Shown piece by piece: positions 186-24,652 of a DNA stretch of 38,214 bases. The stretch covers positions 1 to 38,214 of the IMG/VR virus record IMGVR_UViG_3300009703_000045; one strand, given 5' to 3'. The stretch's first letter is position 1. The number at the start of each line of letters is the position of its first letter. Under the pieces are notes generated by a model, which made no database searches, was not told where the DNA came from, and worked only from the letters and a program-made list of their open reading frames with translations. The position numbers and the translations under genes are program-made. Source of the stretch: a virus.

Positions 186-533
186 AGTACTCCTGGTGGA
201 GGTGGTTCTGGAATATTTAATCAAGTTGGTACTACCGACTGGTATCAAGTTACTCAAAATCTATCAATAAGTGGAAGTATAACTATATCTGGTTCTATTA
301 TACCTGACGAGAACGCTGAACATGATTTGGGACAGCGAGGAAATAAATGGAAGTCCATCCATGCACAAGATACATTTTTTGGTGATGTAAATTTATCTAA
401 TGAGCAGTATCGTGGAAATGAAGTTGATGGTACACACGGTAGTTGGACTATCCAAGAAGGAGATACAGATTTATTTTTAATCAATAGAAAGACTGGGAAG
501 AAATATAGTTTTGTGTTAAAGGAGGTTAAATGA
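3..533 (+). CDS. SSYA-repeat structural/fibre protein, 5' end missing
   Basis: The reading frame is open from the first bases of the window, so the true start lies upstream. A TTG at 72 could be read as a start but sits inside the repeat array and has no ribosome binding site. The first about 60 residues are a hexapeptide-like array (TTSSYA, VESSSY, ALTASY). A glycine-rich linker and an ISGSITISGS beta-type stretch follow, then a C-terminal part with the fibre-type motif HDLGQRGNKWKSIHA and the ending DLFLINRKTGKKYSFVLKEV. Similar endings occur in virion proteins of marine T4-like phages as I recall them, so a role at the virion surface (fibre or fibre-attachment) is inferred. It overlaps the next gene at TGATG. 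The exact function is unknown. Confidence 0.75.
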   Translation, partial: TSSYATTSSYATTSSYVESSSYSLTSSFATTSSYATTSSYVESSSYATTSSYALTASYALNSTPGGGGSGIFNQVGTTDWYQVTQNLSISGSITISGSIIPDENAEHDLGQRGNKWKSIHAQDTFFGDVNLSNEQYRGNEVDGTHGSWTIQEGDTDLFLINRKTGKKYSFVLKEVK

Positions 534-1018
534 TGGAATTTTCAAGTTCATTATTTATTGTATCTGAATCAAAAGCTACCTTTAAAAGTGGAATTACTGT
601 TACAGGTGATGTTACTATTGAAGATTCTGTAGGACCGATAGTGGGTACATTCCAAGGAGATGGTAGTTCGTTGGATGGAGTTGATGGAGCCGGAATACAA
701 TTGCTTGTAGGTTCAGCTTCAGGAACACCAATGGCGTTTGATGAGTGGGCTACTGGTAGTGGGGGGTTACATGATATAACATTAACAGCTTCATCTTCGG
801 GTGGGGATTTAAATCACTATACTTTTATCGAAAACAAAAATGACGAGTGGAATGTAGTTTCTTCGGGCTCTAATAATGGGTTAAATAAACAAGATACATA
901 TATAGTCGAGGGACTATCTACTGGTGTTTATAGATATTTAGTGTTAGGAGTTACGACAGCATCAAAATCCACGGTAGTTAAGGGGACAACAATAACAATT
1001 AATCCGGGTGAGTTATAA
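533..1018 (+). CDS. small structural protein, paralogue of the N-terminus of the next gene
   Basis: About 161 residues. Two ATGs at 530 and 533 are possible. AAAGGAGG at 518-525 lies 4 bases from the first and 7 from the second, so 533 is preferred; it overlaps the upstream stop as TGATG. The protein has a fibre-type GDGSSLDGV motif and ends with GVYRYLVLG and TTITINPGEL. Both ends match the first about 190 residues of the following giant protein (QFTSSAW...FQSGI, GDGSALTGV, GVHRYLVYG, TTITIKSFVNEL), so the two probably arose by tandem duplication. It abuts the next gene at TAATG, which suggests translational coupling. A virion surface role is inferred from context; no enzymatic motif is visible. 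Confidence 0.7.
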   Translation: MEFSSSLFIVSESKATFKSGITVTGDVTIEDSVGPIVGTFQGDGSSLDGVDGAGIQLLVGSASGTPMAFDEWATGSGGLHDITLTASSSGGDLNHYTFIENKNDEWNVVSSGSNNGLNKQDTYIVEGLSTGVYRYLVLGVTTASKSTVVKGTTITINPGEL

Positions 1019-4000
1019 TGGCAGGAATACATCAATTTACGAGTAGTGCATGGATACAATCTGGAAGTGAAGCTAAATTCCAGAGTGGGATTGTGGTGTC
1101 TGAATCTTTTGATGTAGAAGGCACTATCATCGCATCGGCGTTTAGTGGAGATGGGAGTGCACTAACAGGGGTCGGTAAAGTATTCTTCGCAGGTACGGGT
1201 TCTGCACTATCTGAATCCACCCCAAGAACTGAAGACATTGTAATTCAATTAGGTTCTGGTGAAAGTCTGGCCACGGTAGAATCAGTTAGAATAGAAACTA
1301 CATCATCGGCAAATTTCTTACCAAATTATTATACATTCGTAAAAATAACAGATAAATTTACAACAATTGATAGTGGTTCAAGAAGTTATTATTCTGCTTC
1401 TAACAGAGACCCACTTTATGACGCAACTGACCCTGAATATATTCAAGTACCATCTTTAAATGATTTTGCACCGGGAGTTCATAGATATTTAGTGTATGGA
1501 GCTCAAACTGGCAGTGGTGGTGATACACAACAAGTATTCACAACTATTACGATTAAGTCATTCGTTAATGAACTTCCAACTATTATTATTCCAACTGGCT
1601 CGGTAGTAGGTAGTCCATTAACTATGTCTATGGTACATGACGAAGATTCTATTGAAATGATAGCTCATTTTACATCATCTGAAGATACAAACATTGATGA
1701 TTTTATTAGGGTTTATTCCGCGAGTAGAGATACAAGTAATCCAGCAGTAAATTATGGAACCAACACACCTAGTTATACTTTTACAATGCGACACCACCAA
1801 GCTGACATTTTAAATGATAAAATTTGGACAGCTTCTATTAATACAGACGGTGATGAAGAAACGGGTGGTACAGCTGAAGCTTTATTACAAGAATCCTTAG
1901 TATTTACTGCAAGTGTTAGTAGTTATGACATGGTTGACAATAATAGAGTTTTAAATCAAGTAATTAACCGAGATGAAGAATTTAGAATTGGTATGTTAGA
2001 TAATAATGTAGCTCAAGGAGCAACTGGTCAAGGAGCTCCAAACGAAGTTCCATTTACAATGTCTGTATTTCCACCACCTACGGCAAGTATTGATAATATA
2101 AGAGTTGAATTTGAATCTGGTAGTTATAGTGGAATTGTTACAAGTTCGTATGAAACAACTATTCTATATGATGATGTTGAAACTCGCCAAACAGCATCAG
2201 ATTTAGCTACCGAATATACAGCATCATTAGTCAGATTACGAGTAACAGCAGATATTACAGAACCCCCGGGATATACTACAGCTGACACTCATTTTACAAC
2301 TGTTAGAATTTTAAGTGCTTCAAGTGTTCCAACTAATACTGCTGAAACATTTAATTACTTTAGATTTAGTGGTAGTCAAGAGACAGCATCAACTTATCAT
2401 ACAACAGAAATAGGTCACGACACACCATATACAGCAGTTACCGAGAGTGAAGGATTTACTGGATTTATTTTCGGGGACCATACAGCTTTCTTTAGTGTAG
2501 CGAGTAACAGATTACACTACACTACTTATATTAAACATGGTAACAATGACCATTATAAAGCAACTCATTATACAGACCATATGGGTAAACTAATAGTTAA
2601 TCCTTGCCCAGTCATAGAAATATCAGATATTGTAGTAGAAGTAGAAAGTGGTTCATATTTAACAAATGAACTTGATACTGAGAGAACGGCTAGTATATTA
2701 TATGGATATACAACTACATTATTAACTGCTGAAACATCCAGTTTAGAGGGGTACGAAAAGTCAAATGAGTATATAAGTGAATCTGTTGTTAGATTACGAT
2801 TGAGAGCTAAAGTTCAAGAACCATTTGGCCCACATCATACTATAATTACAGCTTCTATTGATGCAGTTGGTGGTGATTATAGTCATACATTTTATTTTGA
2901 AACTGGTTCAACATCTCATCCAAGTGGGGCAATAGATTTCTCTTGGGGCAGAGATGAAAATTATAGATTAACTGCGTCATATACATCATCTTGGAAAGAA
3001 TTTAAGTATAATCCAGGTGAATATACATTTACACCAACTTTTACTTCACCGACAAATGCAGATATAAATGATTATACTTCATACATAACCGAATGTCACA
3101 TATCAGTAAGTCAAACACCACCGACACAAATTGAAGATATTGTTTATGAAACAGAAACTTATGGGTATTCTGAGGTAACTACCACATCGGGTTCAAGGAA
3201 AATATTGTATGGTGTTCCTCATTATTCATTAGCTGATAGTATGAGTTTTGCAACTCATCCAAGTGCATCAAATTACGCTTCACAATCAGTTTCAAGATTT
3301 AGAGTTAGAGCTAAAATAACAGAACCCTTCGGACCACATCATACAGAATCAAGATTTGAGAAGTCTTTTGAAACTGCTAATGAATCGACACTAACAGATT
3401 CAATTACATTCAGTACAGCATCAACTGATGTCCCAGAGGGATATTCAAGTTCTGGTTATGATAGCAATAATAGACTTACAGCTTCTTATACATCATCTTG
3501 GGTTGGACAGCAATTAAGTAGTTCAGGTTATACAGATGGGACAACTTGGTCATATTTAAGTGGTAGTATTTTACATACACCAGCTGATTTGAGTGGTTTT
3601 ACGACCACATCGGGTCAAACTTCATCATTAATAGTATATGATACAGAACAAACAAAAATTAGAAATTTGAAAATAGAAACAGAAACATTTGGTGAATCTG
3701 GAATTGGACAGAATTATCCATCATTTACTCCAGCACAAAGAACAATATTATATGGAAAAACAACTTCCGAATCTACTGGTTCAGATTGGCCAAATAATCC
3801 AGAATATACAGCTTCATCTGTTACACGATTTAGAATATTAGTTGATGTTGAAGAACCATTTGGATTTCATCATCATAGTACTGCAATTAAGTATAATAAA
3901 GACAATCAACACACCGGTGATACTGGTACTGGTGATGGAACTACAAAAACTTTTAATACTTCATCGGCTTATAATATTAATTGGGGTTATGATAACAATA

Positions 4001-7000
4001 ACAGACTTACAGCATCTTATACTTCATCTTGGATAAATGAAGCATTAGCTCCATCATATAATAGTATTGACCAAGATACTTGGGAATTCCATTTTACTGA
4101 TAATGATACTTATATTTTACACAACCCAAGTGATGAAAATGGTAGAACAATATTAGATGATATATCTCAAGCAACGAATTATACTGCAGTTTCAGCTTCC
4201 CCAGATGTTAAAGTTGAAAACTATAGTGTAGAAGTAGAACAATTTCCATATTCTTCAAGTATAGGTACTGATTCAAGAACAGAAACTATATTATATGGAC
4301 AAACAGCAACATTACAAGATACAATAGCTGACACTATTGGGGATTTATGGAGTGGTTCAGCTTGTGTTAGATTTAGAGTGTTGGTAGATATAACTGAACC
4401 AAAAGGACCTCAACACACACCTATGGACTTTACATTAAACAAAGATAATTCAGTATTAAAAACATTTATATTTAAATCTGGTTCCGATACTGGTGATATT
4501 GAAACATCAAGTTCTGGTTATAATACAAATAATGATTATACAGCTTCTTATACAAGTTCTTGGTATGGTAATACTCCAGTTACTCCATTTACTGTAGGTA
4601 CTTACAATATGAACTCAACAGCATCCCATACATCTCAACCAGTTGGTGAATTTTATACTGATGGGTTACTTGATGATAAAGCTGATACAGTTGCTTCTTT
4701 AACAATAAATAACCATGACGATACTCAAATTAAAAATATTAGAGTAGAAGCCGAAACTCCAATATCTGGAAGTGGTGTAGGAACACCTTCACGGGTAACA
4801 ACATTATTACATGGAAAAAATGTAACTGAAACTGTTAAAGCTACAAATAGTGGTTATAATATTCCTTCACAAGAACAATTAGTTAGTGTTAGGGTATTAG
4901 CAGATATAATAGAACCATTTGGCCCACATCATACCTCAAGTGTATTTACTATTGGTGGATATTCTGGTGGAAACCATAAAGTAACAGTACATACTGGTTC
5001 TACAGAGATTTCAAATTCAATCAAATTTGATTATAATGTGCATAGTTCACAATCAGTATTTTATACATCTTCATTTGTTCCTATTGAGTTGAATAGTACA
5101 GCGACAGTCACATATAATTCAGTATTACATAATACTGATAGTGGTTTAGTAACTGTAACACATTTAGGTGGTACTGAAATTACAGTTAATCCACCACCAT
5201 CAGCATCGGTATATACTGTACCAGAAACTTCATCAGATGATACCGATTGGTCTTCAAGTGTAGATTTAGCTAAGTATGTAACTTATGAGGGCGCTGATAT
5301 TTCAGTAGATATAGTTTCAGGTATAAGTGCAATTGCACCTCCAACTACATCTTTATCTACTTTGACATTCCCTGCAAATTTAGAAGTCAATTACGATGCA
5401 ACAGATACTGTTGATATAGTGTTTAATCCAACAACTGGTGACGCTAATAATAGTGCAGATACATCCTCATTGGAAATTGATACAGCTCTGTTAAACGATT
5501 TAACAGATGTAGGAAGTTATACTATTTATGTCACTGGTAGTGATACGGAGCCTGGTAACGGAACATCATCAAATAATCCATTTACATTTAATATCGTTCC
5601 AGCTAAACCAAGAACATTACATGGTGAATATTGGTCAAATAGTGGTGGTAGTAGTCACATTATAGTTTCTACATATGCAGCAGCAGGAATTAATATACCA
5701 CCGATAGGTGGTAGTGCTCGATTATACAAAGCATCACTACCTACAGGTTTAGATTATTATAAAGGTGATGAGCCAGCTGGTAATACTGTTACTAATGTTA
5801 TGATGGCAAAAGATACATCAGCTGGTCCAACAAATTATACAATGTCATTTACAACTCCTAGCAATTTTAATGGTAATTATACTAATACTGATAGAGCATA
5901 TGATTTTGGTGATACAGGTTCATTAATTGTTAAAGTTAATGGTGTTGAAAAAGTTAATGCTAGTTTACAAGCAGAGTTTGTAGAAGCAGATAAAACTGGT
6001 AATCAAAGTTTAGAAGGTTATGATGAAAATGGTTGGAGTGATGGTACAGCAAGTTGGGATAGTGGTAAATCAAGATTGATACTTACAAAAGTAGCTCCGT
6101 TTAACAATGTATCTCAAAGTATTTATAGGGGTGACAGATATTATCCAAATGGTTATCAAGGTTGGGCAGCTAGACTTGAATTAGACAACAAACAGAGAGA
6201 TGGATATAATATATTAGAATTTTCACATTCTATTGATGGAACAACTACACAAAGTTTAGAACCATTTGAGTGGTATTATGATGATGGGATTACAACCGCT
6301 TCAATTGATACCTCAGGTATTATAAGTTGGAGTTTTGACCCTGTAGGTAGTATTACTCAAAGTTATTTATCTGGTGTTTCATTTTTCAGAAAACAGACTA
6401 CACAAGCTAATAATCATCTTGTATTATCTTTAAAAGATAGATTATTAGGTTTAGCAAATAAAACATATAGAGACCCTAGCACTTCAACTCAAGCAGCTGT
6501 AGTTATTACTACTACAGGTGTTGAATTTACTGAAGATACTGCCAATGAAATTGAAATAGATTCTGGTTCAACTTTAAATAATAATACAACATTGTATCAC
6601 GATTTGACAAGTACGAGCACTCGTGACGGGTTAGTATTTAGTGATACAGCTTATGATAGCATAATTCCTACAACAGGTTCAAGTGGTAGTATTGATAAAA
6701 TAACTGCTTGGGTAAATACTACTTTACCATCTAACCCAGCAGATAAGAAAGGTATTGTTTATACACTTGATATTAAACCACAAATCAGAACTTATAATGG
6801 AAATAATAGTTGGACTCATAATCCTATATCAGCTTCAATTCCAGTGGGTAGATGGTTAAATGATTTTACACCAATTACATCAAATACTGATGAATCAGAA
6901 TTTTTTGGTAAAGAAGATTATAGGTGGACAAGTCAAAGTGCAATTGATTTGGTAGAGTTAAATGACCCTGGAAACCTTTTCCCAGCATCAGGTAACCCTG

Positions 7001-7692
7001 TACAAGATGGTGCTTTAAATTGGTGGACAGGTTCAGAAAGAACAGATTATACTTCATCAAATAATATTTCACAATCAACTGATTTACAAGTTAGATATGA
7101 TGGAGCTTTAGTATATCCAACTATTGATTATACTCGATATGATGGAATAACTAATAGAGTTACAAACCCAACATTTACAGATTATTCTAATGCGAGTGGT
7201 AGTGGTGATAGATATTATTATAGAATAATAAGTGTACCAGACCCATCAGGACAATCATCATATAAAATGAAAATAGGAACAAGTGCTGGTGAAGATGGTA
7301 TATTAAAGTCAGATATTTGGGCAGGTGGTCCACCAGCAGTTGGGATTGATACTTTACCTGTTAGAATTGATATGAGATTAGTTGGAACTCCAACTACAGC
7401 AGGAACAGGAAATACTGGTGTTCCTGGAACTAAATGGGGAGTTGTTACTGGAGGTGAAACTGCAGGAACTAATCCAGCAGCTGATGATTGGGGAACAGCT
7501 ACCGCATTTTTAGATAAAGAAGTTACTGCTCCTGAAGGTAGTGGTGTAACTACTGAACATCATATTAATTTTACTTTACGGACTATGGTTGCTGATTATA
7601 ATGGTGGAATATTCTTAGTTAGAGTTAGATTTAAAGATAATGCTACTGGTAGTAGAATGCATATGAATAGTTTAACTATAGTAGAAAATTAA
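1018..7692 (+). CDS. giant repeat-containing virion surface/fibre protein (2224 aa)
   Basis: The N-terminal about 190 residues resemble the preceding small gene. From about residue 360 to 1390 there are six tandem repeats of about 170-185 residues. Each has a VEVESGSY/VETETFG-type strand, a TILYG segment, a VRLRVRAKV strand, an E-P-F-G-P-H-H-T motif (first residues near 415, 601, 769, 946, 1127 and 1299) and a YTSSW element. Ig/cadherin-like sequence follows (about 1400-1530), then a large beta-rich C-terminal part with WW-rich and GD/SGS segments that could be a receptor-binding or carbohydrate-binding head; that is inference. No signal peptide, coiled coil or S74-type chaperone end is evident. 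It starts within the upstream stop (TAATG). The length and repeats fit a long tail-associated fibre or adhesin. Confidence 0.7.
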   Translation: MAGIHQFTSSAWIQSGSEAKFQSGIVVSESFDVEGTIIASAFSGDGSALTGVGKVFFAGTGSALSESTPRTEDIVIQLGSGESLATVESVRIETTSSANFLPNYYTFVKITDKFTTIDSGSRSYYSASNRDPLYDATDPEYIQVPSLNDFAPGVHRYLVYGAQTGSGGDTQQVFTTITIKSFVNELPTIIIPTGSVVGSPLTMSMVHDEDSIEMIAHFTSSEDTNIDDFIRVYSASRDTSNPAVNYGTNTPSYTFTMRHHQADILNDKIWTASINTDGDEETGGTAEALLQESLVFTASVSSYDMVDNNRVLNQVINRDEEFRIGMLDNNVAQGATGQGAPNEVPFTMSVFPPPTASIDNIRVEFESGSYSGIVTSSYETTILYDDVETRQTASDLATEYTASLVRLRVTADITEPPGYTTADTHFTTVRILSASSVPTNTAETFNYFRFSGSQETASTYHTTEIGHDTPYTAVTESEGFTGFIFGDHTAFFSVASNRLHYTTYIKHGNNDHYKATHYTDHMGKLIVNPCPVIEISDIVVEVESGSYLTNELDTERTASILYGYTTTLLTAETSSLEGYEKSNEYISESVVRLRLRAKVQEPFGPHHTIITASIDAVGGDYSHTFYFETGSTSHPSGAIDFSWGRDENYRLTASYTSSWKEFKYNPGEYTFTPTFTSPTNADINDYTSYITECHISVSQTPPTQIEDIVYETETYGYSEVTTTSGSRKILYGVPHYSLADSMSFATHPSASNYASQSVSRFRVRAKITEPFGPHHTESRFEKSFETANESTLTDSITFSTASTDVPEGYSSSGYDSNNRLTASYTSSWVGQQLSSSGYTDGTTWSYLSGSILHTPADLSGFTTTSGQTSSLIVYDTEQTKIRNLKIETETFGESGIGQNYPSFTPAQRTILYGKTTSESTGSDWPNNPEYTASSVTRFRILVDVEEPFGFHHHSTAIKYNKDNQHTGDTGTGDGTTKTFNTSSAYNINWGYDNNNRLTASYTSSWINEALAPSYNSIDQDTWEFHFTDNDTYILHNPSDENGRTILDDISQATNYTAVSASPDVKVENYSVEVEQFPYSSSIGTDSRTETILYGQTATLQDTIADTIGDLWSGSACVRFRVLVDITEPKGPQHTPMDFTLNKDNSVLKTFIFKSGSDTGDIETSSSGYNTNNDYTASYTSSWYGNTPVTPFTVGTYNMNSTASHTSQPVGEFYTDGLLDDKADTVASLTINNHDDTQIKNIRVEAETPISGSGVGTPSRVTTLLHGKNVTETVKATNSGYNIPSQEQLVSVRVLADIIEPFGPHHTSSVFTIGGYSGGNHKVTVHTGSTEISNSIKFDYNVHSSQSVFYTSSFVPIELNSTATVTYNSVLHNTDSGLVTVTHLGGTEITVNPPPSASVYTVPETSSDDTDWSSSVDLAKYVTYEGADISVDIVSGISAIAPPTTSLSTLTFPANLEVNYDATDTVDIVFNPTTGDANNSADTSSLEIDTALLNDLTDVGSYTIYVTGSDTEPGNGTSSNNPFTFNIVPAKPRTLHGEYWSNSGGSSHIIVSTYAAAGINIPPIGGSARLYKASLPTGLDYYKGDEPAGNTVTNVMMAKDTSAGPTNYTMSFTTPSNFNGNYTNTDRAYDFGDTGSLIVKVNGVEKVNASLQAEFVEADKTGNQSLEGYDENGWSDGTASWDSGKSRLILTKVAPFNNVSQSIYRGDRYYPNGYQGWAARLELDNKQRDGYNILEFSHSIDGTTTQSLEPFEWYYDDGITTASIDTSGIISWSFDPVGSITQSYLSGVSFFRKQTTQANNHLVLSLKDRLLGLANKTYRDPSTSTQAAVVITTTGVEFTEDTANEIEIDSGSTLNNNTTLYHDLTSTSTRDGLVFSDTAYDSIIPTTGSSGSIDKITAWVNTTLPSNPADKKGIVYTLDIKPQIRTYNGNNSWTHNPISASIPVGRWLNDFTPITSNTDESEFFGKEDYRWTSQSAIDLVELNDPGNLFPASGNPVQDGALNWWTGSERTDYTSSNNISQSTDLQVRYDGALVYPTIDYTRYDGITNRVTNPTFTDYSNASGSGDRYYYRIISVPDPSGQSSYKMKIGTSAGEDGILKSDIWAGGPPAVGIDTLPVRIDMRLVGTPTTAGTGNTGVPGTKWGVVTGGETAGTNPAADDWGTATAFLDKEVTAPEGSGVTTEHHINFTLRTMVADYNGGIFLVRVRFKDNATGSRMHMNSLTIVEN
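2095..5190 (+). repeat. six tandem protein-domain repeats (EPFGPHHT repeats)
   Basis: Six degenerate copies of a roughly 510-560-base coding unit lie head to tail inside the 2224-residue gene. The codons for the EP(F)G motif begin at 2260, 2818, 3322, 3853, 4396 and 4912, giving spacings of 558, 504, 531, 543 and 516 bases. The first copy (EPPGYTT) and fifth copy (EPKGPQHT) are the most diverged. DNA identity between copies is modest, so the expansion is old or the repeats are diversifying. Confidence 0.75.
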
Positions 7693-7929: not shown

Positions 7930-10900
7930 ATGGCCTTAGGTGATGTAGGATTTAGTGAATATGAAAAACGAATTACAGCGTTTAAGCATGTATTTAATAC
8001 TTTAAACCAAGATTCGGGTAAACAACAATATGAAGAAGTATTTGATACTGCTCATACTATATTTGCTGAAGAATTAATTGATGGATATGTAAAACCACAG
8101 AGAGTTGGTACACCCTCATACGCGAGAGTTAGAACTTGGGTAACACGTAGTGAAGATGTATCGGGAGATGTTACTGCTTTATGGTCCGGTAGCTTTTCTT
8201 CTTCAGATGAAGATGCTGATACTGATAATCCAAATGTTGAAAAAATCGTTATGCCATTGACTATGTTAAATGAAGTTAATAACCAATATTACTATGCTTA
8301 TGGCAAATCAGGGTCTTTACATGAGGATATAAATTCTGTTGATGGTACTTATGATTCTGGTTATGCTACTACTAAATTAAGTAGAGGTTTACTATTTGAT
8401 TCTTCTTCAGCGATATTAAGAAACTGGATAAATCCTCAAAGATTTGGGGGTGCATATAAATCTACAATTAAATATACAAATTCTACTAATACCGGACCGA
8501 CTGGTCAGATACCCGATGATATTCCGTCAACTTCAACAGGATATAAATTAGGAGGTTGGATTTTCGATGCGTTTAAAGGTGGGTTGTTTATAGCTAGACA
8601 TGCTACTGCAGAAGATGCACCTGATTTAAGTGGATATAAACATCCACTTTGGATTGAAGGTTATCGTTACATAGGACCAACGGGTCAAGTTCCAACAGCA
8701 ATTTCATCATCTTATCTTAGTGCAAGTGGAATAAGTTTCACAAGTGCAAGTTCCGCGGAAACAAACCAATATAATACTGTATTAATAGATACGGGTTCAG
8801 GTCGATTATATTATACTGGAAGTTATGGTGGTGGTGGAAGTGGTAATGGATTTCCATTTAGTGGAAGTGCACTATTGACAGGTTCTCTGTTAATTTCAGG
8901 AAGTGGTGATGATGAACCATTATTTACCGTTGATGGTGATATGAGTGTAACTGGATATGTAAATAGTAGTTTAACTATACAAAATAGTTCTGATGACGCT
9001 ACCTTGAAAGTTCAAGGATATCATGCGACTGAGTATGTTGAATTGAAATGGGACTATGACTCAGATAACGCAATCCTTGAATGGCACCCTAATTATGATT
9101 TGGTAATGAGGACTTCTGCAGCCTCTGTTATGACACTTAGAGGTGATAGGTCAGTAGAAATCTTTAAAGATTTAGTAATAGGTAATTTATCTTCAAACTT
9201 TATTAGTGCGAGTAATGGTACTATAGAATTTACTGGAGATTTAAGTGGTTCTGGTACGACAACAGCTTCATTCGCTCATTTTGTAGTAGATACTGTTGAA
9301 AGTAAGTCAGTAATACATACGGTTGTGAATGAAATGAGTCATTTTTCATCATCTACATTTAGTGGTAGTACAATATTCGGAGCAGATGACCCAGAGGATG
9401 CGGGTCCAGCATCAGAATACATCCACCAATTTACAGGTAGTATTGATATATCAGGTTCGGGTGAATTTAGAATACCATCAATATCATTTCAATATGCTAG
9501 TGGCTCATACTTAGATTTTAATAGTGCTAGTTTTGGTAATTTAAAATCTACCGAACATATACATTTTTCTCAATCAGTTTTAACTGGTTCTTTAACTATA
9601 AGTGGAGGAGTAGATGACACTCCATTATTAAATGTATATGGTACAGCTAAATTTATTAGTGATTCTTATGAATATTTTAACATAGATTCATCTGGTAATG
9701 GTGATTTGGAAGTTACGGGTTATATAAGTGCTAGTGAACTCGTGTTAGTTAATAATCTGAATGTGACGGATATAACCGCAAGTAGAAACATAAGTTCAAG
9801 TGGGATAATAGTAGGTTCAAATTTAAGTGGTACAAATACTGGTGACCAAGATTTATCTACTTATTTACAAAATTCTGATACTGGTTCGATGGGTAGTTTA
9901 AATGTAGTTGGAAACATAAGTTCAAGTGGAAACATAAGTTCAAGTGGAACTATATATGCAACTGAATATTATAAAAATGGTTCTGTATTTTCAGGTGGTG
10001 GGACTGGTAATTGGTTTGATGGTACTACTTATCAAACTTCATCTGTTGATATACGAATAGAAGGTGACATAAGTGCAAGTGGTGATGTGTACGGTCGTCA
10101 TATAATCCCAAATAATGTATCTGGAGTTCATACTTTAGGAACCAACACAGACCGGTGGGATAGATTATATATGTCGTCTAACATAATGTACGATAATGAT
10201 TTAAATCTCAGTGGTTCGGGTAATGTCAATATAGGTAATATGAGTGGTATGGGTAATATACAAGGTAAATTAGCAGTCACCACTGAAGTTGGTGATGAGG
10301 TTATAGCATCTTTTGGTTACAAATACAGGAAAGTTATGGATATAACTCGTGGTGGAAAACCAGCCGACACTACTGGTCACGGTCATTTCGACTACATAAC
10401 CGATTCGGTGGGTGTGACAGTAATAGGGGCGGATGGTAAACCAATACCAAGTTCTATAATAACTCTGTATGACAACACTTTCCATAGTGCTCCGAGCGGT
10501 GGAGCTTGGATGAATCTAATGCATGTATATAGTAGTTCAGCTGGAGTTGTATCATCAAGTGCTGGTGTTATAGGTTGGGGAGGAAATTCACCAGTATTTG
10601 GGTTAGGAACTACACAACCATCAGCATCATTTCACATATCAGCTTCCCTATCTGGAAGTCAGACTGATTTACTCAGAATACAGAATGATTTGGGAGTTCC
10701 TGTATTTAAGATGAAACCTGATGGTAGATTTATAATGAGGCACTCAGCTTCTTCAGCTAATGAAGTGACAATGAGTGTGGGGACAGACAATACTTTTAGA
10801 GTAAATGATGTATTTTCGGTAAACCACAAAGATATTAGAATAAGAACTGGTTCACGAGAAATTAAAATGTTTGTTGACCCAATAACTCACGATTTAAAAA

Positions 10901-11880
10901 TAAAATCGGGGTCGGTTGATTTGCTTAGTGTATCAAAGGAAGGTGGTATTATAACTGATAGGGTTACGAATGTTACCACTGATTCACCACAATCATCAAT
11001 TGTAGCAGCCACGGCCAGTAGAATTTTAAATTCAGATACAAGTTTTATTCAGGGTGGTATAAACCACGAAATAACCGCATCAAAACATTCTGCTATATTA
11101 GGAGGTTTTAACAATAGTATTGACTTAGCTAACCACGCTAACGATTATGGTAATATGATATTTGGTAGTATTAATTCTAAAGTATCGGGGTCTGTTGGGT
11201 ATAGTAATTTAATATTAGGTTCTGGGGGGTCTTCCATTTACAAAAGAACATCCTCAGTTTATTATAGAAATATTATAATAGGTGGTAGTTCACACCAGAT
11301 AACAGATGGAATTGACAATGTAATAGTTGGGGGTCAAAATAACATATTAACTGGTAGTATTTTAGATTCTAACTCAGGATTTATTGGTAGTTGGAACTCT
11401 GTCATATCCAATAAAACGGATAGTTGGATTATAGGTATGAGAAACAAAACTGCAGATGCTGACGAGACAGTTTATGTAGAAAATCTATCAGTTGATAGTA
11501 ATATAAATGTAGGTGGTGATGTTGATATAAGCGGAGTTTTAACTGCGACAAGAAAATCATTTTTAATTCCACATCCATCAAAAGAAGGTAAACAATTACA
11601 ATACGCCTCACTTGAAGGACCAGAAAATGGTGTATATGTCCGTGGAGTTTTGAAAAGTGATTACAAAATAACATTACCAGATTATTGGGTACACTTAGTA
11701 GATAAAGGAACAATAACGGTTAGTTTAACACCTATCGGAAGATTCCAAAATTTATATGTAAAAGACATTCGTAATAATGAAATATTGGTAGGTTGTAAAA
11801 AACCTACACGGAAAATATATTGTCATTATGTAGTATATGGTGAGAGAAAAGATATAGATAAACTGGAGGTTGAAGTGTAA
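7930..11880 (+). CDS. large tail-fibre-like structural protein (1316 aa)
   Basis: The protein opens with an about 290-residue domain that may anchor it, containing two GPTGQ(I/V)P motifs. A long region of ISGSG/SGSLTISG and NISSSG units follows, then the motif VHTLGTNTDRWDRLYM, which resembles the DLG..W motifs of two other genes here. Next comes a stretch of GGFNNSI/GSINSKV/LGSGGSS/GGQNNIL units typical of left-handed beta-roll head domains of trimeric adhesins. It ends with a compact conserved-looking domain (about 1205-1316) containing SLEGPENGVYVRG, LPDYWVHLVDKGTITVSLTP and YGERKD. Similar C-terminal domains occur in T4-like cyanophage structural proteins as I recall. The start has GTGAGAG 6-12 bases upstream. 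It overlaps the next gene by one base (TAATG). Role: trimeric fibre, inferred. Confidence 0.72.
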   Translation: MALGDVGFSEYEKRITAFKHVFNTLNQDSGKQQYEEVFDTAHTIFAEELIDGYVKPQRVGTPSYARVRTWVTRSEDVSGDVTALWSGSFSSSDEDADTDNPNVEKIVMPLTMLNEVNNQYYYAYGKSGSLHEDINSVDGTYDSGYATTKLSRGLLFDSSSAILRNWINPQRFGGAYKSTIKYTNSTNTGPTGQIPDDIPSTSTGYKLGGWIFDAFKGGLFIARHATAEDAPDLSGYKHPLWIEGYRYIGPTGQVPTAISSSYLSASGISFTSASSAETNQYNTVLIDTGSGRLYYTGSYGGGGSGNGFPFSGSALLTGSLLISGSGDDEPLFTVDGDMSVTGYVNSSLTIQNSSDDATLKVQGYHATEYVELKWDYDSDNAILEWHPNYDLVMRTSAASVMTLRGDRSVEIFKDLVIGNLSSNFISASNGTIEFTGDLSGSGTTTASFAHFVVDTVESKSVIHTVVNEMSHFSSSTFSGSTIFGADDPEDAGPASEYIHQFTGSIDISGSGEFRIPSISFQYASGSYLDFNSASFGNLKSTEHIHFSQSVLTGSLTISGGVDDTPLLNVYGTAKFISDSYEYFNIDSSGNGDLEVTGYISASELVLVNNLNVTDITASRNISSSGIIVGSNLSGTNTGDQDLSTYLQNSDTGSMGSLNVVGNISSSGNISSSGTIYATEYYKNGSVFSGGGTGNWFDGTTYQTSSVDIRIEGDISASGDVYGRHIIPNNVSGVHTLGTNTDRWDRLYMSSNIMYDNDLNLSGSGNVNIGNMSGMGNIQGKLAVTTEVGDEVIASFGYKYRKVMDITRGGKPADTTGHGHFDYITDSVGVTVIGADGKPIPSSIITLYDNTFHSAPSGGAWMNLMHVYSSSAGVVSSSAGVIGWGGNSPVFGLGTTQPSASFHISASLSGSQTDLLRIQNDLGVPVFKMKPDGRFIMRHSASSANEVTMSVGTDNTFRVNDVFSVNHKDIRIRTGSREIKMFVDPITHDLKIKSGSVDLLSVSKEGGIITDRVTNVTTDSPQSSIVAATASRILNSDTSFIQGGINHEITASKHSAILGGFNNSIDLANHANDYGNMIFGSINSKVSGSVGYSNLILGSGGSSIYKRTSSVYYRNIIIGGSSHQITDGIDNVIVGGQNNILTGSILDSNSGFIGSWNSVISNKTDSWIIGMRNKTADADETVYVENLSVDSNINVGGDVDISGVLTATRKSFLIPHPSKEGKQLQYASLEGPENGVYVRGVLKSDYKITLPDYWVHLVDKGTITVSLTPIGRFQNLYVKDIRNNEILVGCKKPTRKIYCHYVVYGERKDIDKLEVEV

Positions 11881-15801: not shown

Positions 15802-17547
15802 ATGGCAGAAAAAATTGTAAGTCCGGGCGTATTCACCAATGAGATAGATGCTTCTTTTTTACCAGCAGCAGTCGGAGACATTGGCGCGGCGTTGATAGGA
15901 CCGACAGTAAAAGGACCACATCTGGTTCCTACAGTAGTCGAATCATACGCTGAATATCAAGCAAAGTTTGGTGATTCTTTTAAAAGTGGAAGTCAATATT
16001 ATACATATTTTACTTCAATAGCAGCTAAGAATTATCTACAGCACGCTGGTAAATTGACAGTAGTGAGAATTGCAGGTGATGGTATAACAAATGCATCGGC
16101 TAGTATTACACAATCGGTAGGCACTGGTAATTCATTTGATTTACATACTTTAGCAGATGGTGTTATAATGAATAATAGTGGTTCGATAGGTACCAATGAT
16201 ACATTAGCATCAGCTACAAAGGATAGTATTCGATGGGAAATAGCAGGTAGAAATGATAAAAAAGGTACATTCACTTTAGTTATTAGAAATGGTAAAGATA
16301 CTTCAAAGAGAAAGAATCCGTTAGAAACTTGGAACGATTTGTCACTTGACCCTACCTCAAATAATTATATAGAACGAATAATAGGTAACCAGTATAATAC
16401 ATTAGCTACTGATGGTAGTACTACATATTTACAATCAACTGGTGAGTTTGTAAATAAGTCAAAATATGTTAGAGTTGCTAATGTAACTCAAACACCTGAT
16501 TATTTAGATGAAAATGGTACTGTGACAGTTCCAGCTGATAGTGGTTCATTACCTCAGACTGGTAGTGGTTCAATTGGCGGTGCATTCCAAGGTGGTAATG
16601 ATGGTGTGAAAACAACAGGTCCACATAAGTTCTATGGTGACGCGTCAGCATCGGCTGAATGGCAGGGTTTTAATTTGACTTTAGGTAAAGCTACTGGTAG
16701 TGACCAATTCGTAAGTGCACTAAATCTAATAGCAAACGGTGATGAATATGATATTAATATGATATTGATGCCAGGTGTTACTAATGATATAGCTTCACAT
16801 CTTGTTTCAAAAGCAATCGATGTAGCAGAGGCGAGAGGTGATACTTTCTATGTAGCAGACCCAGTAGTCAAGGGAGCTAATCTATCAACTGCAGTTACAG
16901 CAGCAGAAACATACGATTCTAATTATACTGCAATGTACTGGCCGTGGGTTCAAGTAAATGAACCACAGATTGGCAGAAATGTATGGGTACCACCATCAAC
17001 TATGATGGCTGGTGTTATTGCATTCAATGATAAAGTTTCTCACGAATGGTTTGCACCTGCAGGATTGAATAGAGGTGGACTTGATATGGCTATACAGGCT
17101 GAGAGAAAACTAACACATGCGAATAGAGATACTTTGTATGAATCGAGTGTTAATCCATTAGCAACTTTCCCTGGGGAAGGTGTTGTATGTTGGGGCCAAA
17201 AGACTCTACAAAAGAAATCATCTGCGCTGGATAGAGTTAATGTACGAAGGCTATTAATTAAAGTTAAGAAGTTTATAGCAGCTTCTTCACGGTTTTTAGT
17301 ATTTGAACAGAACAATGCATCGACACGAACCAGATTCTTGAATATAGCTAATCCTTTCCTTGAAAGTGTTCAACAAAATAGCGGTTTAAGTGCATTTAAA
17401 GTGATTATGGATGATACAAATAATACTCCTGATTTAGTTGATAGAAATGTCTTATATGGACAGATTTTCTTACAACCAACACGAACAGCTGAGTTTATTG
17501 TATTGGACTTCACAGTAATGCCTACAGGAGCGACTTTCCCTGAATAA
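15802..17547 (+). CDS. 18: tail sheath protein (gp18-like)
   Basis: 581 residues. The contractile tail sheath subunit wraps the tail tube and contracts to drive it through the host envelope. The N-terminus has the sheath hallmark SPGVFTNEIDAS and AALIGPTVKGPHLVPTVV...YAEYQAKFG. The C-terminal third is the most typical part: NVWVPPSTMMAGVIA, WFAPAGLNRGGLD, VNPLATFPGEGVVCWGQKTL, VNVRRLLIKVKKFI and the final beta-strand FIVLDFTVMPTGATFPE, which in the family mediates subunit-to-subunit exchange. The central part (about 90-280) is the variable protruding domain. It is a little shorter than T4 gp18. The start is preceded by gggagaaaaac. A terminator follows at once, so it is probably a separate transcript end. 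Confidence 0.95.
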   Translation: MAEKIVSPGVFTNEIDASFLPAAVGDIGAALIGPTVKGPHLVPTVVESYAEYQAKFGDSFKSGSQYYTYFTSIAAKNYLQHAGKLTVVRIAGDGITNASASITQSVGTGNSFDLHTLADGVIMNNSGSIGTNDTLASATKDSIRWEIAGRNDKKGTFTLVIRNGKDTSKRKNPLETWNDLSLDPTSNNYIERIIGNQYNTLATDGSTTYLQSTGEFVNKSKYVRVANVTQTPDYLDENGTVTVPADSGSLPQTGSGSIGGAFQGGNDGVKTTGPHKFYGDASASAEWQGFNLTLGKATGSDQFVSALNLIANGDEYDINMILMPGVTNDIASHLVSKAIDVAEARGDTFYVADPVVKGANLSTAVTAAETYDSNYTAMYWPWVQVNEPQIGRNVWVPPSTMMAGVIAFNDKVSHEWFAPAGLNRGGLDMAIQAERKLTHANRDTLYESSVNPLATFPGEGVVCWGQKTLQKKSSALDRVNVRRLLIKVKKFIAASSRFLVFEQNNASTRTRFLNIANPFLESVQQNSGLSAFKVIMDDTNNTPDLVDRNVLYGQIFLQPTRTAEFIVLDFTVMPTGATFPE

Positions 17548-19627: not shown

Positions 19628-22609
19628 ATGCCAAAACCAAGAGACGCCTCGGGACAATTTATATCTAATGACAAAGCTGATGAAATCATTGAAGCTGAAA
19701 AACGAATAGCTGAAGCTAAACAGAATGCACAGCAGCAAACATTCGATAAAGCTAATAAACTTGTAGATGACTATTATGCTAAGGTGGAAGCAGGTGAAAA
19801 AATAACTGATGAGCTTAAGCAACAATATTTTGACGCTATAAAAGACATTGATAAATTCCAGAAGAAATCACAAAAGGAAATAGAAGAAAAGGCGGAAGAG
19901 TATGCTGAATATAGAGTATCACAGGTAAAACAATTAGGTGTACACGAAACGGAATTATCAAGTATTGCAATTGGAGCTATTGAAGCAGCACAGTTCGCTT
20001 ATAAAAAAGGTAATGATGATATGGCTAAAGGTTTTGACAAAATAACCGAACTTACTCTTGAACAAGCAGCCGCGTCAAAGCAAATTGGTTCGGAAGATTA
20101 TACTAATTTAACATATAAAACTGAAATAGCAGCTACAGATAAGGAAATTTACACAATAGAGTCAGATATTCTTAAAGCTAAAGCAGCTGGTAGAAGTGAC
20201 GATATGCAGGATTTAATATCAAAAAAACAAGCTTTACAACTACAAAAAGACGGATTGGAAAAGTTAGAAGAATCAGCTGAAATAATGAACTACAAACACG
20301 ATGCCATCACTAAAGGTCTACAACCACTTAAAGATATGGAAAAAAAGTTTAATGATATATTACATACTGTTGGTGCTATAGTTTCAAATCCAATGGTATT
20401 ATTAGTTACATTAATAACAGCTGCCGCAGCACACTTCGCAGCGACGGAAAAAGCAGCAGAAGATTTTCGCCAAGGGCTTGGGTTGACTGTTAGTGAGAGT
20501 AAAGCATTAGAAGAATCAGCTATGAATGTTACTAAAAACATGGCAGCGGTTGGACAAACTTATACGGAATCTTTAAGTGCGGCGTCAGCATTAGTAACTA
20601 CGATGGGTAGTTTAAGTGCAGCTACTGCAGAAAATATTGAAATGGTTTCTAAAATGAGTAAAGTTCTTGGAGTGACTGCTGATGAATCTGCAAAGTTCCT
20701 TGAAAATATGTCAGCGACTGCTGGAATAACAGTTAAAGAAGCTGGTCACTTAGCGGTAGTTAGTACTGAACTGGCTAAAGCAGCGGGTGTAGCTCCTGGA
20801 CAAGTAATAAAAGATATGACTACTAATTCAGAATCATTCGCAAACTATATAAAAGATGGTGGTGAGAATTTAGCAGAAGCAGCTGTATTTGCGGCTAAGA
20901 TGGGTGTAAATATAGCGTCAATGGTAAAGATGGCTGACAGTTTATTAAACATAGAACAATCATTAAATGATGAAATGGAAGCAGAAGCATTGTTAGGTAG
21001 AGACATCAATTTAGAAAAAGCTAGACAATTAGCTTTTGATGGTAAAATTGCAGAAATGGGAGCTGAAATAACTAAACAAGTTGGAACGGCAGCTGAGTGG
21101 GAATCAATGAGAGGTCACGAGAGAGCAGCTTTAGCTAAAGCTATGGGAATGGAAGTTAGTGAGATGGGTAAGATGATTAAAAACCAAGAACTTATAGCAG
21201 ACTTAGAAGCTGGAAGATTGAGTACACAAGAAGCTATAGCACAAGGATTATCATTCGATGAAGTGATGAAAGTTAATGATGTTTTAGGCCCTATTACAGA
21301 GATGAAAAATTCAATTTCAGCTATAGCTATGAATTTATTAGAAGTGTTTAAACCCGTGTTTTCAGCGATAGCACTCATAATTGAGGGTATAGCTTTTACT
21401 CTTGCTCTCATAGCTAAATGGTTAAATACTGATATTGGTAAAGGATTAACTGCTGGTGTTGTAGCTTTAACACTATGGAGGTCAAATACTCTTGGAATGG
21501 TAAAAAACTTAACTGTTGGTGGATTAAAAGCAATTAAGAATTTCGTTACTTGGTTAATAACAGGACAAAAAGCTCAAGAAGCTACAACAAAAAGTGCAAA
21601 AGGAATGTTTAGTGTGATGAAAGATGGTATGAAATCAATTACCGGAAAAGGAAAAAGTATGTTAGGACTTGGTAAGGCAAAAGTATCAGACTCAGTAAAA
21701 ACAACTGAAAGTCCAACTGAAAGTCCAACTGGAGGAATGTTTAAGAACTTCGATGCTAAAAAAGCTTTAAAAGGAGCAGCTGCGTTATTAGTGGTATCGA
21801 CCGCGTTATTCGTGTTTGCTAAGGCACTTCAAGAAATGCCACTCGATGTTGGACCATATATAGCAGCCGCAGCTGGATTAGGAATTATGGGAGCAGCATT
21901 ATTTGGAATATCAAAGTTGTCTGGTGATTTAATAGTAGGAGCTGCAGCTATGGTAATTATGGGAGCTTCATTAATCCCATTCGCGTTTGGGTTACAAATG
22001 TTGTCTGATGTAGATTATGGACAAATAGCGTTAGTCGGAGTTACTCTGATAGCATTTACGGCCGCAGTATTTGGTTTGGGGGTTCTTATGATGACTGGTG
22101 TAGGAGCTCTTATATTCGGCGCTGGGGTAGCTGGTTTTATAGCACTTGGTGGAGCTCTTATAGTTCTCGGAGTTGGTGTCACGGCTATAGGTGGTGGTAT
22201 GATGTTATTGACTATGGGACTTCAAGGTTTAGGTGAGCATATAATACCATTAGCTACCAATGTCAGTAATATCGTATTACTTGCAGGGGCGTTTGCACTC
22301 TTCGGAATAAGTTTAGTTTCGTTAGCAGCTGGACTAGCACTAATTGCACCAATGTTACCAGTGATATTAGCTTTAGGAGCAATTGGTGGGTTAGCTATGG
22401 GAGTTATGAGTTTCACTACAAGTAACGAACATTCAGAAGGAGAAACATCATCGTCAACATCATCAACATCACCGAGTGAGGGAGAAAATTTAGGAGCTAA
22501 ATTAGATAGATTAATATCATTAGTAGAACAGGGTGGTGTTATTAATATGGATGGTAAAAAAGTGGGTGAAGTGTTGGGTGGTAGTATAATGAGACCGGTA
22601 GTCGGATAG
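19628..22609 (+). CDS. 29: tape measure protein (tail length determinant, gp29-like)
   Basis: 993 residues. Tape measure proteins fill the tail tube lumen and set tail length. Features: a charged, helical N-terminal third with coiled-coil segments (EIIEAEKRIAEAKQNAQQQ, KKSQKEIEEKAEEYAEY), a first hydrophobic segment near 255-275, a central Met/Ala-rich helical region (about 290-560) of the kind found in many phage tape measures, a second hydrophobic stretch near 560-600, and a long chain of Gly/Ala/Leu hydrophobic segments at about 715-925. It ends with a Ser-rich linker and a small conserved tail (KLDRLISLVEQGGVINMDGKKVGEVL). It is longer than T4 gp29. The start has only a weak binding site (gagaat), so coupling with the preceding gene is likely. 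Confidence 0.85.
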   Translation: MPKPRDASGQFISNDKADEIIEAEKRIAEAKQNAQQQTFDKANKLVDDYYAKVEAGEKITDELKQQYFDAIKDIDKFQKKSQKEIEEKAEEYAEYRVSQVKQLGVHETELSSIAIGAIEAAQFAYKKGNDDMAKGFDKITELTLEQAAASKQIGSEDYTNLTYKTEIAATDKEIYTIESDILKAKAAGRSDDMQDLISKKQALQLQKDGLEKLEESAEIMNYKHDAITKGLQPLKDMEKKFNDILHTVGAIVSNPMVLLVTLITAAAAHFAATEKAAEDFRQGLGLTVSESKALEESAMNVTKNMAAVGQTYTESLSAASALVTTMGSLSAATAENIEMVSKMSKVLGVTADESAKFLENMSATAGITVKEAGHLAVVSTELAKAAGVAPGQVIKDMTTNSESFANYIKDGGENLAEAAVFAAKMGVNIASMVKMADSLLNIEQSLNDEMEAEALLGRDINLEKARQLAFDGKIAEMGAEITKQVGTAAEWESMRGHERAALAKAMGMEVSEMGKMIKNQELIADLEAGRLSTQEAIAQGLSFDEVMKVNDVLGPITEMKNSISAIAMNLLEVFKPVFSAIALIIEGIAFTLALIAKWLNTDIGKGLTAGVVALTLWRSNTLGMVKNLTVGGLKAIKNFVTWLITGQKAQEATTKSAKGMFSVMKDGMKSITGKGKSMLGLGKAKVSDSVKTTESPTESPTGGMFKNFDAKKALKGAAALLVVSTALFVFAKALQEMPLDVGPYIAAAAGLGIMGAALFGISKLSGDLIVGAAAMVIMGASLIPFAFGLQMLSDVDYGQIALVGVTLIAFTAAVFGLGVLMMTGVGALIFGAGVAGFIALGGALIVLGVGVTAIGGGMMLLTMGLQGLGEHIIPLATNVSNIVLLAGAFALFGISLVSLAAGLALIAPMLPVILALGAIGGLAMGVMSFTTSNEHSEGETSSSTSSTSPSEGENLGAKLDRLISLVEQGGVINMDGKKVGEVLGGSIMRPVVG

Positions 22610-22618
22610 GAGATATAG

Positions 22619-24652
22619 ATGGCATTAGTAACACAAGACGCGATACCAACCACAGGATTATCAGCGAAAAAACCAACACCAAAAAAAAATAACAGTAAAA
22701 TTCAACAGAAGTTGACAAGTCCACCATCGATGGGTGGTGATGATTTCAAAAATAATGATAATCGTATAGCATGGCATTCAACCAAACACTCACATCCATT
22801 GAACAATGGACTTGGAGATATACAATTTGGTAAGGGTATTCCCAATAAAACAGAATTAACGAACTGGACAATTGGTACTACTACTATTGACTACACACCA
22901 ATATCAAGTAGATATAATTCGTCAAAGATACAGTCAAATTTAGGTGATTCTGTATATGAAATAATTTCAGCTGAAGCTCAACGGCGAGCTAGTGGACCAA
23001 GAACAGCAGCATATTTTTCTGAACCACATATAATTAAACGACCGCACGAAGCACCTGCTCAAGAAGGAAAGGTTGCAACTGCAGTGAATTTAGTTAAAGG
23101 GATGGCTGACTTTATGGGTCTTAAACTTTCATTGAAAGATGCATATGCTTACGGTCGACATACATTAAGCCCTCGAGGTTTATTATTCTTAGCTAATGAG
23201 ACGGCTCTAACTAAAAGAATATTGGGTGCAGCATACGAAGGTCCTAAAACATTCAGAGAAACATTGGGTAGTTATAGTCCATCAGCTATCATTACCAAAT
23301 TGAAAACTGGAAACACATTTAATCCATTAGGTATATACGCGTCGAGAGTACTCGGTGGTGTAGGGGCTAGAGGTATAAGAAATTACAGAAATAAAGGTGA
23401 AGGTCTTACAGGGATGTTAGCACCTACCGTAGTGTTATATAGTGATGATTTACAGACTGGTGAGGACGATATTGAAAAAGCTTATCAGACTAATATAGGG
23501 TTACATGAGCACTACGCGGATATTACACCCCACATTCGTAAAAAAAGTTTTACTAATACAGAACGACCATATGTAGATGAACCATTTATGGAACAGAATG
23601 GACCTATGTCCTGGCTTGGTATTGTAACTAATAGAAATGATTTGAGTAAATGGTGGACTAAGAGAATAAGACAATCACAGCGAAATGTAATAGATGCGGT
23701 ATCAACTGACGAAGATGTTTCAGTAAATGCTGACGGTGTCGAACCCGTAGGTTCAGATTTTACTGACCATAAAATAATGCAAGATATAACTCCGTCACAC
23801 GAATCAATGGAAACTCCATTTACTATGAAAGCTAATGAAGATGGTGAAACATTACATACCCGCGGTGGTGAGGAATTAGTAGATAAATACAGAGCTCATT
23901 TATATGGAGGTATTGTAGCAGCAAGAAATGACAGAAGTAAATGGACATCACAGCGAACAATAGAAGTTGATGGCCAACCTAAAAAGGTAGAAATACAAAC
24001 ATCATATGGAGTATCTGGTCGACCGAACCCCGGTGGGAAATATGAAGGTGATAAAATTAATTTATTAGAAATTCAACAATTAAACGATGATGGTACTGAA
24101 CCAGTAACAGGTGTCCACGATTTAATACCATTTAAAATTAAAATATTAAATACAAACCAGATGATTATATTAAGGGCTTATATTGATGACATATCTGACA
24201 CTATAACTCCAGACTGGTCTGAGATTAATTATGTAGGGAGACCAGACCCTGTCCATGTATATAAAGGGGCCAAACGACAATTTTCTTTAAAATTTAAATT
24301 AATACCTAATTCAAAAGCAGAACATAAAATTCTTTGGGAAAAGGCTAATACTTTAGTTGGTTTAAATTACCCTACATATGCTAGTTTAGGTAATACTGAA
24401 ACGAATGCAAGCTTAGGTAATAGAATGGTAGCTCCATTTATAAAATTAACAGTAGGTGATATAATTCATGACCAAGCTGGTTATTTTAGTGGAATTAATG
24501 TCAGTTCGATAGATAACTCTCCGTGGGAACTTACACCGGGACAACGATTACCTATGTATATAGAAGTATCGGCTACATTTGTGTTTATAGGTAATCACTT
24601 ACCAGATTTAGGTAACCCTAAATTTTATAATATAGATAACTTACAACAGTAG
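22619..24652 (+). CDS. 48: baseplate tail-tube cap/initiator protein, gp48-like
   Basis: 677 residues, started by taggagatatag. The C-terminal about 180 residues carry the recognisable part: LIPFKIKILNTNQMIILRAYI, DDISDTITPDWSEINYVGRPDP, VHVYKGAKRQFSLKFKLIP and a final RLPMYIEVSATFVFIGNHLP. This set is typical of the T4 gp48/gp54 baseplate tube-cap and related contractile-system tube-end proteins, which join the baseplate to the first tube ring. The N-terminal two thirds look phage-specific, with long Arg/Lys-rich helical segments. The size exceeds that of T4 gp48. It lies between tape measure and the LysM protein, as expected for baseplate-tube junction genes. The 48 versus 54 assignment is uncertain. 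Confidence 0.72.
   Translation: MALVTQDAIPTTGLSAKKPTPKKNNSKIQQKLTSPPSMGGDDFKNNDNRIAWHSTKHSHPLNNGLGDIQFGKGIPNKTELTNWTIGTTTIDYTPISSRYNSSKIQSNLGDSVYEIISAEAQRRASGPRTAAYFSEPHIIKRPHEAPAQEGKVATAVNLVKGMADFMGLKLSLKDAYAYGRHTLSPRGLLFLANETALTKRILGAAYEGPKTFRETLGSYSPSAIITKLKTGNTFNPLGIYASRVLGGVGARGIRNYRNKGEGLTGMLAPTVVLYSDDLQTGEDDIEKAYQTNIGLHEHYADITPHIRKKSFTNTERPYVDEPFMEQNGPMSWLGIVTNRNDLSKWWTKRIRQSQRNVIDAVSTDEDVSVNADGVEPVGSDFTDHKIMQDITPSHESMETPFTMKANEDGETLHTRGGEELVDKYRAHLYGGIVAARNDRSKWTSQRTIEVDGQPKKVEIQTSYGVSGRPNPGGKYEGDKINLLEIQQLNDDGTEPVTGVHDLIPFKIKILNTNQMIILRAYIDDISDTITPDWSEINYVGRPDPVHVYKGAKRQFSLKFKLIPNSKAEHKILWEKANTLVGLNYPTYASLGNTETNASLGNRMVAPFIKLTVGDIIHDQAGYFSGINVSSIDNSPWELTPGQRLPMYIEVSATFVFIGNHLPDLGNPKFYNIDNLQQ

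Follow-up and report, generated by a model that had tools for sequence, protein, structure and literature searches.

A probable adhesion fibre of a T4-like myovirus with a variable array of predicted immunoglobulin-like units

Phages with strings of immunoglobulin (Ig)-like or BACON domains are already known. The Hoc-like protein of phage Muldoon, a relative of T4 Hoc, is described as having 10 Ig-like domains in 1174 residues (PMC10385173). The BACON array of crAssphage consists of tail-associated tandem domains, for which position-specific clades and, in one lineage, an internal duplication are reported (PMC6949934). The locus described here lies on the 38-kb viral contig IMGVR_UViG_3300009703_000045, all 38,214 nucleotides of which were analysed and are referred to as the window. 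Its open reading frame (ORF) at 1018-7692 (+ strand) encodes a giant fibre-like protein of 2224 residues, in which six diverged repeat units lie between N- and C-terminal regions that align with relatives. The product is probably an adhesion fibre used by a T4-like myovirus, in which an Ig-like stalk that can be extended would lie between the ends, with side modules added in some relatives. On the best reading, which is one by analogy, the fibre would work like the T4 Hoc or crAssphage BACON arrays and be built from an unnamed repeat family.

The likeness to Hoc and Hoc-like proteins is that of a string of diverged, predicted Ig-like domains of variable number. The locus differs from Hoc in that its units have no Pfam match at the cut-off, the complete proteins have 1913-4139 residues, both ends are kept and some units contain inserts. 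Position-specific clades and internal duplication are shared with the BACON array, a likeness in how the arrays work and not in membership: BACON (PF13004) was not matched in Pfam-A scans of the giant protein and 45 units. Here, moreover, there are 5-16 copies between relatives as well as inserted domains, and inserts are not mentioned for the BACON array in the available part of PMC6949934. A third likeness is to the Cpe0147 adhesin repeats of Clostridium perfringens (PDB 4mkm), with which two consecutive modelled units align in VIA-align over 246 residues (Z 7.2, root mean square deviation 6.1 Å); that protein is bacterial, the identity is 8% and the resemblance goes no further than a common fold. 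The literature searched did not contain the repeat motif string, nor was an account of the repeat found by title or abstract start, and the terms searched in the available part of PMC7077304, on Baltic Flavobacterium phages, brought up nothing about the locus.

Borders of the repeat units were drawn from a common first strand, and the six units cover residues 353-1389 (2074-5184, + strand). Unit 1 (2074-2598, 175 residues) carries EPPGYT at 2260, unit 2 (2599-3111, 171 residues) EPFGPH at 2818, unit 3 (3112-3639, 176 residues) EPFGPH at 3322, unit 4 (3640-4191, 184 residues) EPFGFH at 3853, unit 5 (4192-4707, 172 residues) EPKGPQ at 4396 and unit 6 (4708-5184, 159 residues) EPFGPH at 4912. In the protein the EP motifs fall at residues 415, 601, 769, 946, 1127 and 1299. 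A profile built from the units of other phages alone recovered all six, at 68.7, 125.7, 164.1, 122.3, 110.6 and 97.3 bits respectively. The best score was -2.6 bits for the reversed protein and 6.0 bits among 200 shuffles, and the repeats are therefore not due to chance. Weak stretches of the window scoring 1.6 and 3.6 bits were left out of the unit count.

An earlier note on this DNA, made from the sequence alone, had claimed six EPFGPHHT repeats of low identity in this 2224-residue protein. The number was confirmed by the alignment and the relatives-only profile, and so was the low identity, the aligned units being 22-37% identical in pairs. The string itself is literal in units 2, 3 and 6 and reads EPPGYTTA, EPFGFHHH and EPKGPQHT in the others. 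The length of 168-186 residues given for the repeat holds as the spacing from motif to motif and not for the units, which have 159-184 residues, and the proposed span of 2095-5190 is close, its ends being off by 21 and 6 bases. When the giant protein was compared with itself by blastp no internal match was listed, which is a limit of such a plain comparison, and no DNA repeat of at least 80 bases was found in 2071-5190. It follows from these two results that the unit copies in the window are old.

Relatives were sought by alignment-based scans of IMG/VR. These gave nine contigs, and later scans added none. No match came from tblastn against INPHARED, whether the query was the window protein, one of three of its units or one of two relatives, nor from a single-protein pattern scan of IMG/VR, alignments being required; two scans of genome contigs with two short patterns each gave pattern matches and no confirmed relative. 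Three pairs among the nine contigs are near duplicates (L019/L021, 3867/3891 residues; L028/L029, 863/863; L030/L031, 2011/2011), which leaves six lineages besides the window and seven in total. The protein is complete in six of the seven. It has 2224 residues in the window, 4139 in L019, 4106 in L020, 2911 in L022, 1913 in L023 and 2011 in L030, and with an iterated profile the corresponding arrays were found to contain 6, 16, 15, 8, 5 and 6 units. A unit split by an insert was counted once, so that the complete arrays sum to 56 units, or 60 with the four of L028, whose protein is cut by the contig end and is not in the complete set.

In all six complete proteins the array of 5-16 units sits between common terminal regions. 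The N-terminal region (~350 residues) is 38-46% identical to relatives; in the window (residues 1-351, 1018-2070, + strand) the values are 43-46% for four relatives and 38% for L030 over residues 1-400. The C-terminal region (~835 residues; 5185-7692, + strand, 835 residues in the window) is 28-41% identical to its counterparts in five relatives. The earlier note had proposed a comparison of repeat number between related phages, and the counts do differ. Its suggestion that the repeats act as a spacer setting fibre length is supported, at the level of sequence, by this variation between kept ends.

Units 3 and 4 of the window were modelled together with AlphaFold2 from an alignment of 42 rows. 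The model had a predicted local distance difference test score (pLDDT) of 81.1 and a predicted template modelling score of 0.76, unit 3 being better defined than unit 4, and each unit was mostly β-strand with a short helix. Foldseek matched 176 PDB chains at an expect value (E) of 0.001 or better, the best being 1.2e-5; the matches listed were mostly antibody and T-cell receptor chains, together with integrin, DSCAM and Cpe0147. VIA-align, in addition to the Cpe0147 repeats laid across both units, placed an antibody V domain on one unit (Z 6.6, 3.2 Å over 110 residues). A search of a viral structure library was not informative. Its eight matches with E no higher than 0.001 had low template modelling (TM) scores, and four among those with a name were herpesvirus glycoproteins, glycoprotein C or others. 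It seems probable from the model that each unit is an Ig-like β-sandwich. Only the fold class is claimed and not a family, because Z values such as these may mean a common arrangement only.

Prediction of a tandem pair, as proposed in the earlier note, thus gives two predicted Ig-like sandwiches. The same note had not recognised the repeat as a named domain. This stands in so far as the giant protein found no match in Pfam at the cut-off, PHROGs, PDB sequences or INPHARED, and no Pfam family reached the cut-off in any of 45 units (TSP_Ig-like matched one of them, E 0.0094); the predicted fold, on the other hand, is a common one.

A tree of the 60 units from all seven arrays groups them by position. 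The clade of first units contains all seven arrays (support 100/100), that of second units six (95/79, without L030u02) and that of third units five (86/91, with L019u13 falling inside). Counted from the other end of the six complete arrays, the last units of all six form a clade (98/90), as do the second-from-last units of four (100/99) and the third-from-last of four (84/72). L023 and L030 are absent from the third, third-from-last and second-from-last clades. Placement is less sure for L022u08, whose row holds part of an insert, and for L019u01 and L030u01, which are half-length rows; the second halves of these two had no profile match and were excluded from the insert count.

The same pattern was seen in pairwise comparisons. 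In 26 of 30 cases, with 3.7 expected, the best identity of window units 1-3 and 4-6 was to the unit equally far from the nearer end. One of the 26 agreements (Wu03-L030) is a near tie to which another comparison assigns a different unit, and in the five-unit L023 both Wu03 and Wu04 were scored against the middle unit. Within L019, the middle units u6, u8 and u12 are 87-89% identical; in the DNA the distance is 1026 bases, or two units, from u6 to u8 and 2487 bases from u8 to u12. The agreement of the end units by position indicates that array length is altered mainly in the middle, the end units staying in place.

Five of the 56 units in the complete arrays contain inserts, of 138, 122, 218, 145 and ~179 residues. 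They occur in L019, L020 and L022, three of the six arrays, and the window protein has none. By alignment, all five share one position, the hairpin turn that joins the strands at model residues 80-88 and 91-100. A search of PDB sequences with a profile made from three of them (L022u03, L019u11 and L020u10) gave five different matches within an E limit of 10: a GH92 mannosidase (0.0014), a GH31 protein (0.003), AlyQ (0.071) and chitobiase (0.4 and 0.47). The matched parts of these sequences we take to be CBM32 or F5/8 type C domains, and in this respect the inserts weakly resemble glycan-binding domains. The reading is weak because only the three-row profile gave consistent matches. Insert scores in Pfam are under the curated cut-off (L022u08, F5_F8_type_C_2, E 0.045-0.056), L020u12 had a weak MAM match only (E 0.047) and the L022 insert alone gave one weak, unrelated match among PDB sequences. 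The inserts of L019u11 and L020u10 are alike (32% over 62 residues) and are both five units before the last, so they possibly derive from one inherited event. A discoidin-like fold has been proposed as the receptor binder in R-pyocin fibres (PMC6363177), and discoidin domains have been reported from jumbo phages (PMC7824862).

The phage itself was placed by its other genes. PHROGs tail families were matched by the sheath, tube and hub proteins of the window, and families for replication and recombination by its UvsX-like and DnaB-like ones. For the sheath, INPHARED ranks the protein of Flavobacterium phage immuto first (44.9% over the whole length), and the sheath of Microcystis phage Mel-JY01 matches at 49.3% over 87%; the capsid protein of the relative L028 is nearest to those of Mel-JY01 (56.9%) and immuto (55.5%). 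The sheath (15802-17547) has 581 residues, compared with 568 in L045, 709-714 in L043, L044 and immuto and 812 in Mel-JY01, a spread in size which implies that a middle stretch is absent or has been gained among these phages. A 677-residue protein (22619-24652) aligns with the C-terminal part of a 2255-residue Mel-JY01 protein (26% over 232 residues).

The giant ORF is preceded by one at 530-1018 (+ strand) encoding a 162-residue paralogue of the giant N-terminal domain (blastp E 8e-12, 32%); the stop of this ORF overlaps the giant start (TAATG, 1016-1020). With the N-terminal profile a counterpart of the small protein was found in all seven lineages, that of L019 being incomplete in its stretch and whole in L004, from the same contig. 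A tail-fibre PHROG (E 3.4e-6) was matched by the ORF before it, which lies at 3-533 and has an open start. After the giant ORF come the gene for a 1316-residue fibre-like protein (7930-11880, + strand), the C-terminus of which matches an immuto tail-fibre-like protein (46% over 184 residues; 45.2% in a second search), and those for sheath, tube and hub, assigned with PHROGs. The C-terminal domain that the 1316-residue protein has in common with the immuto protein spans residues ~1161-1315; searched at full length, this protein has matches in 45 INPHARED records (32 from Synechococcus phages) and in PHROGs families of unknown function. The cultivated phage immuto has two Laminin_G_3 proteins with a structural annotation in a comparable stretch, between PhoH and lysozyme (L038, 14719-16084); this agrees with the idea that the locus serves in surface binding, but is not homology. 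A protein of 187-193 residues lies beside PhoH or fibre genes (L028, 2786-3346; L030, 7793-8371). Its L028 copy had no PHROGs match and its L030 copy matches one record of a huge uncultured phage (LR756502, INPHARED).

In L028, as in the nearly identical L029, the fibre cluster comes after the genes for the major capsid protein and PhoH. This position would suit a fibre on the capsid surface, an Ig-like string decorating the head for weak attachment of a general kind and not a tail fibre, and T4 Hoc and its homologues, such as the Muldoon protein with its 10 domains (PMC10385173), are indeed Ig-like strings. The cluster, however, runs on into fibre genes, one of which has the C-terminus of an annotated tail-fibre-like protein, and the whole giant protein has no Pfam or PHROGs family match, a test of limited reach. 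The C-terminal domain with which Hoc binds the capsid was not detected in it by Pfam or PHROGs scans, and its C-terminal region has no usable model. A head fibre is possible on these grounds and rather unlikely.

Also rather unlikely is a role in which each Ig-like unit itself binds a glycan and copy number sets avidity and not length. Phage Ig-like domains (PMC9853417) and BACON arrays (PMC6949934) have both been proposed to bind mucus or hosts, and the strong divergence between positions would suit differing ligands; three relatives, however, have gained extra modules as inserts instead.

The residues kept across the 60 units were compared, with numbering as in unit 3, counted from residue 700. 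EP is present in all 60 and EPxG in 55; in the model EP lies at a strand end, in the loop preceding the strand at residues 80-88. E14 (58/59), L31 (57/60), Y32 (54/60), R61 (52/60), R63 (51/60) and G73 (56/60) are also kept, and the conserved glutamates may build a site for calcium or another metal. The His-His that the earlier note took to be conserved, and thought might bind metal, is found in four of the six window units, but in only 18 of the 60 overall, with a single His after EPxG in 28 and none in 14, and a metal site of this kind was rejected as highly improbable because it is so poorly conserved. Just as improbable is a tape-measure-like ruler for tail length: repeat number does differ strongly between relatives, but the ORF at 19628-22609 is a separate tape-measure candidate (25.5% over 341 residues to the annotated immuto protein, E 3.8e-14), and in four phages with 6, 15, 8 and 6 units the candidates have 993, 690, 785 and 620 residues, so there is no positive relation of length to unit number.

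The reading that we prefer is an adhesion fibre whose Ig-like stalk can be extended, and several results have to be set against it. In Foldseek none of the 50 matches listed rises above a TM-score of 0.26 by query length, a low value, and the VIA-align Z values do not exceed 7.4, a size that the tool labels a common arrangement. Four of the 30 position comparisons are misses (Wu03-L023, Wu04-L019, Wu04-L030 and Wu05-L023), three of them in L023 and L030. As regards the inserts, the Pfam match of F5_F8_type_C_2 to the whole L022 protein (E 1.7e-4) reaches 22.6 bits against a cut-off of 27.8 and was lost once the insert was scanned alone, and the L019 insert alone matched, in the PDB, antibody light chains and 'Cake' chains, the latter at a best E of 1.6e-7 but without any individual stretch passing. 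Finally, the structure prediction for the C-terminal region of the giant protein had a pLDDT of 38.6, and this model was set aside as not usable.

For this probable adhesion fibre we infer a location on the virion and an orientation as follows. The N-terminal region (residues 1-351) is the probable virion anchor and would dock the fibre, a version of it being encoded also as the small separate protein upstream. The six putative β-sandwich units, strung together, would form the stalk, and the large C-terminal region would be the far end of the fibre. Changes in stalk length would come from units added or removed in the middle, the end units being fixed, and in some relatives the unit hairpin would accept an extra module, probably glycan-binding. 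More tentatively, the fibre may be likened to a charm bracelet. Its end units would be fixed, recombination would add and remove Ig-like links in the middle, and each link would have one permissive hairpin to take varied binding modules, so that reach and binding repertoire could evolve independently of the docking ends.

What this locus adds to the known domain strings is a small set of related phages in which kept ends enclose 5-16 units and modules of more than one kind have entered at a single insertion site. The unnamed repeat family now has a profile, and once a member is cultured the relation of fibre length to adsorption would become directly testable.

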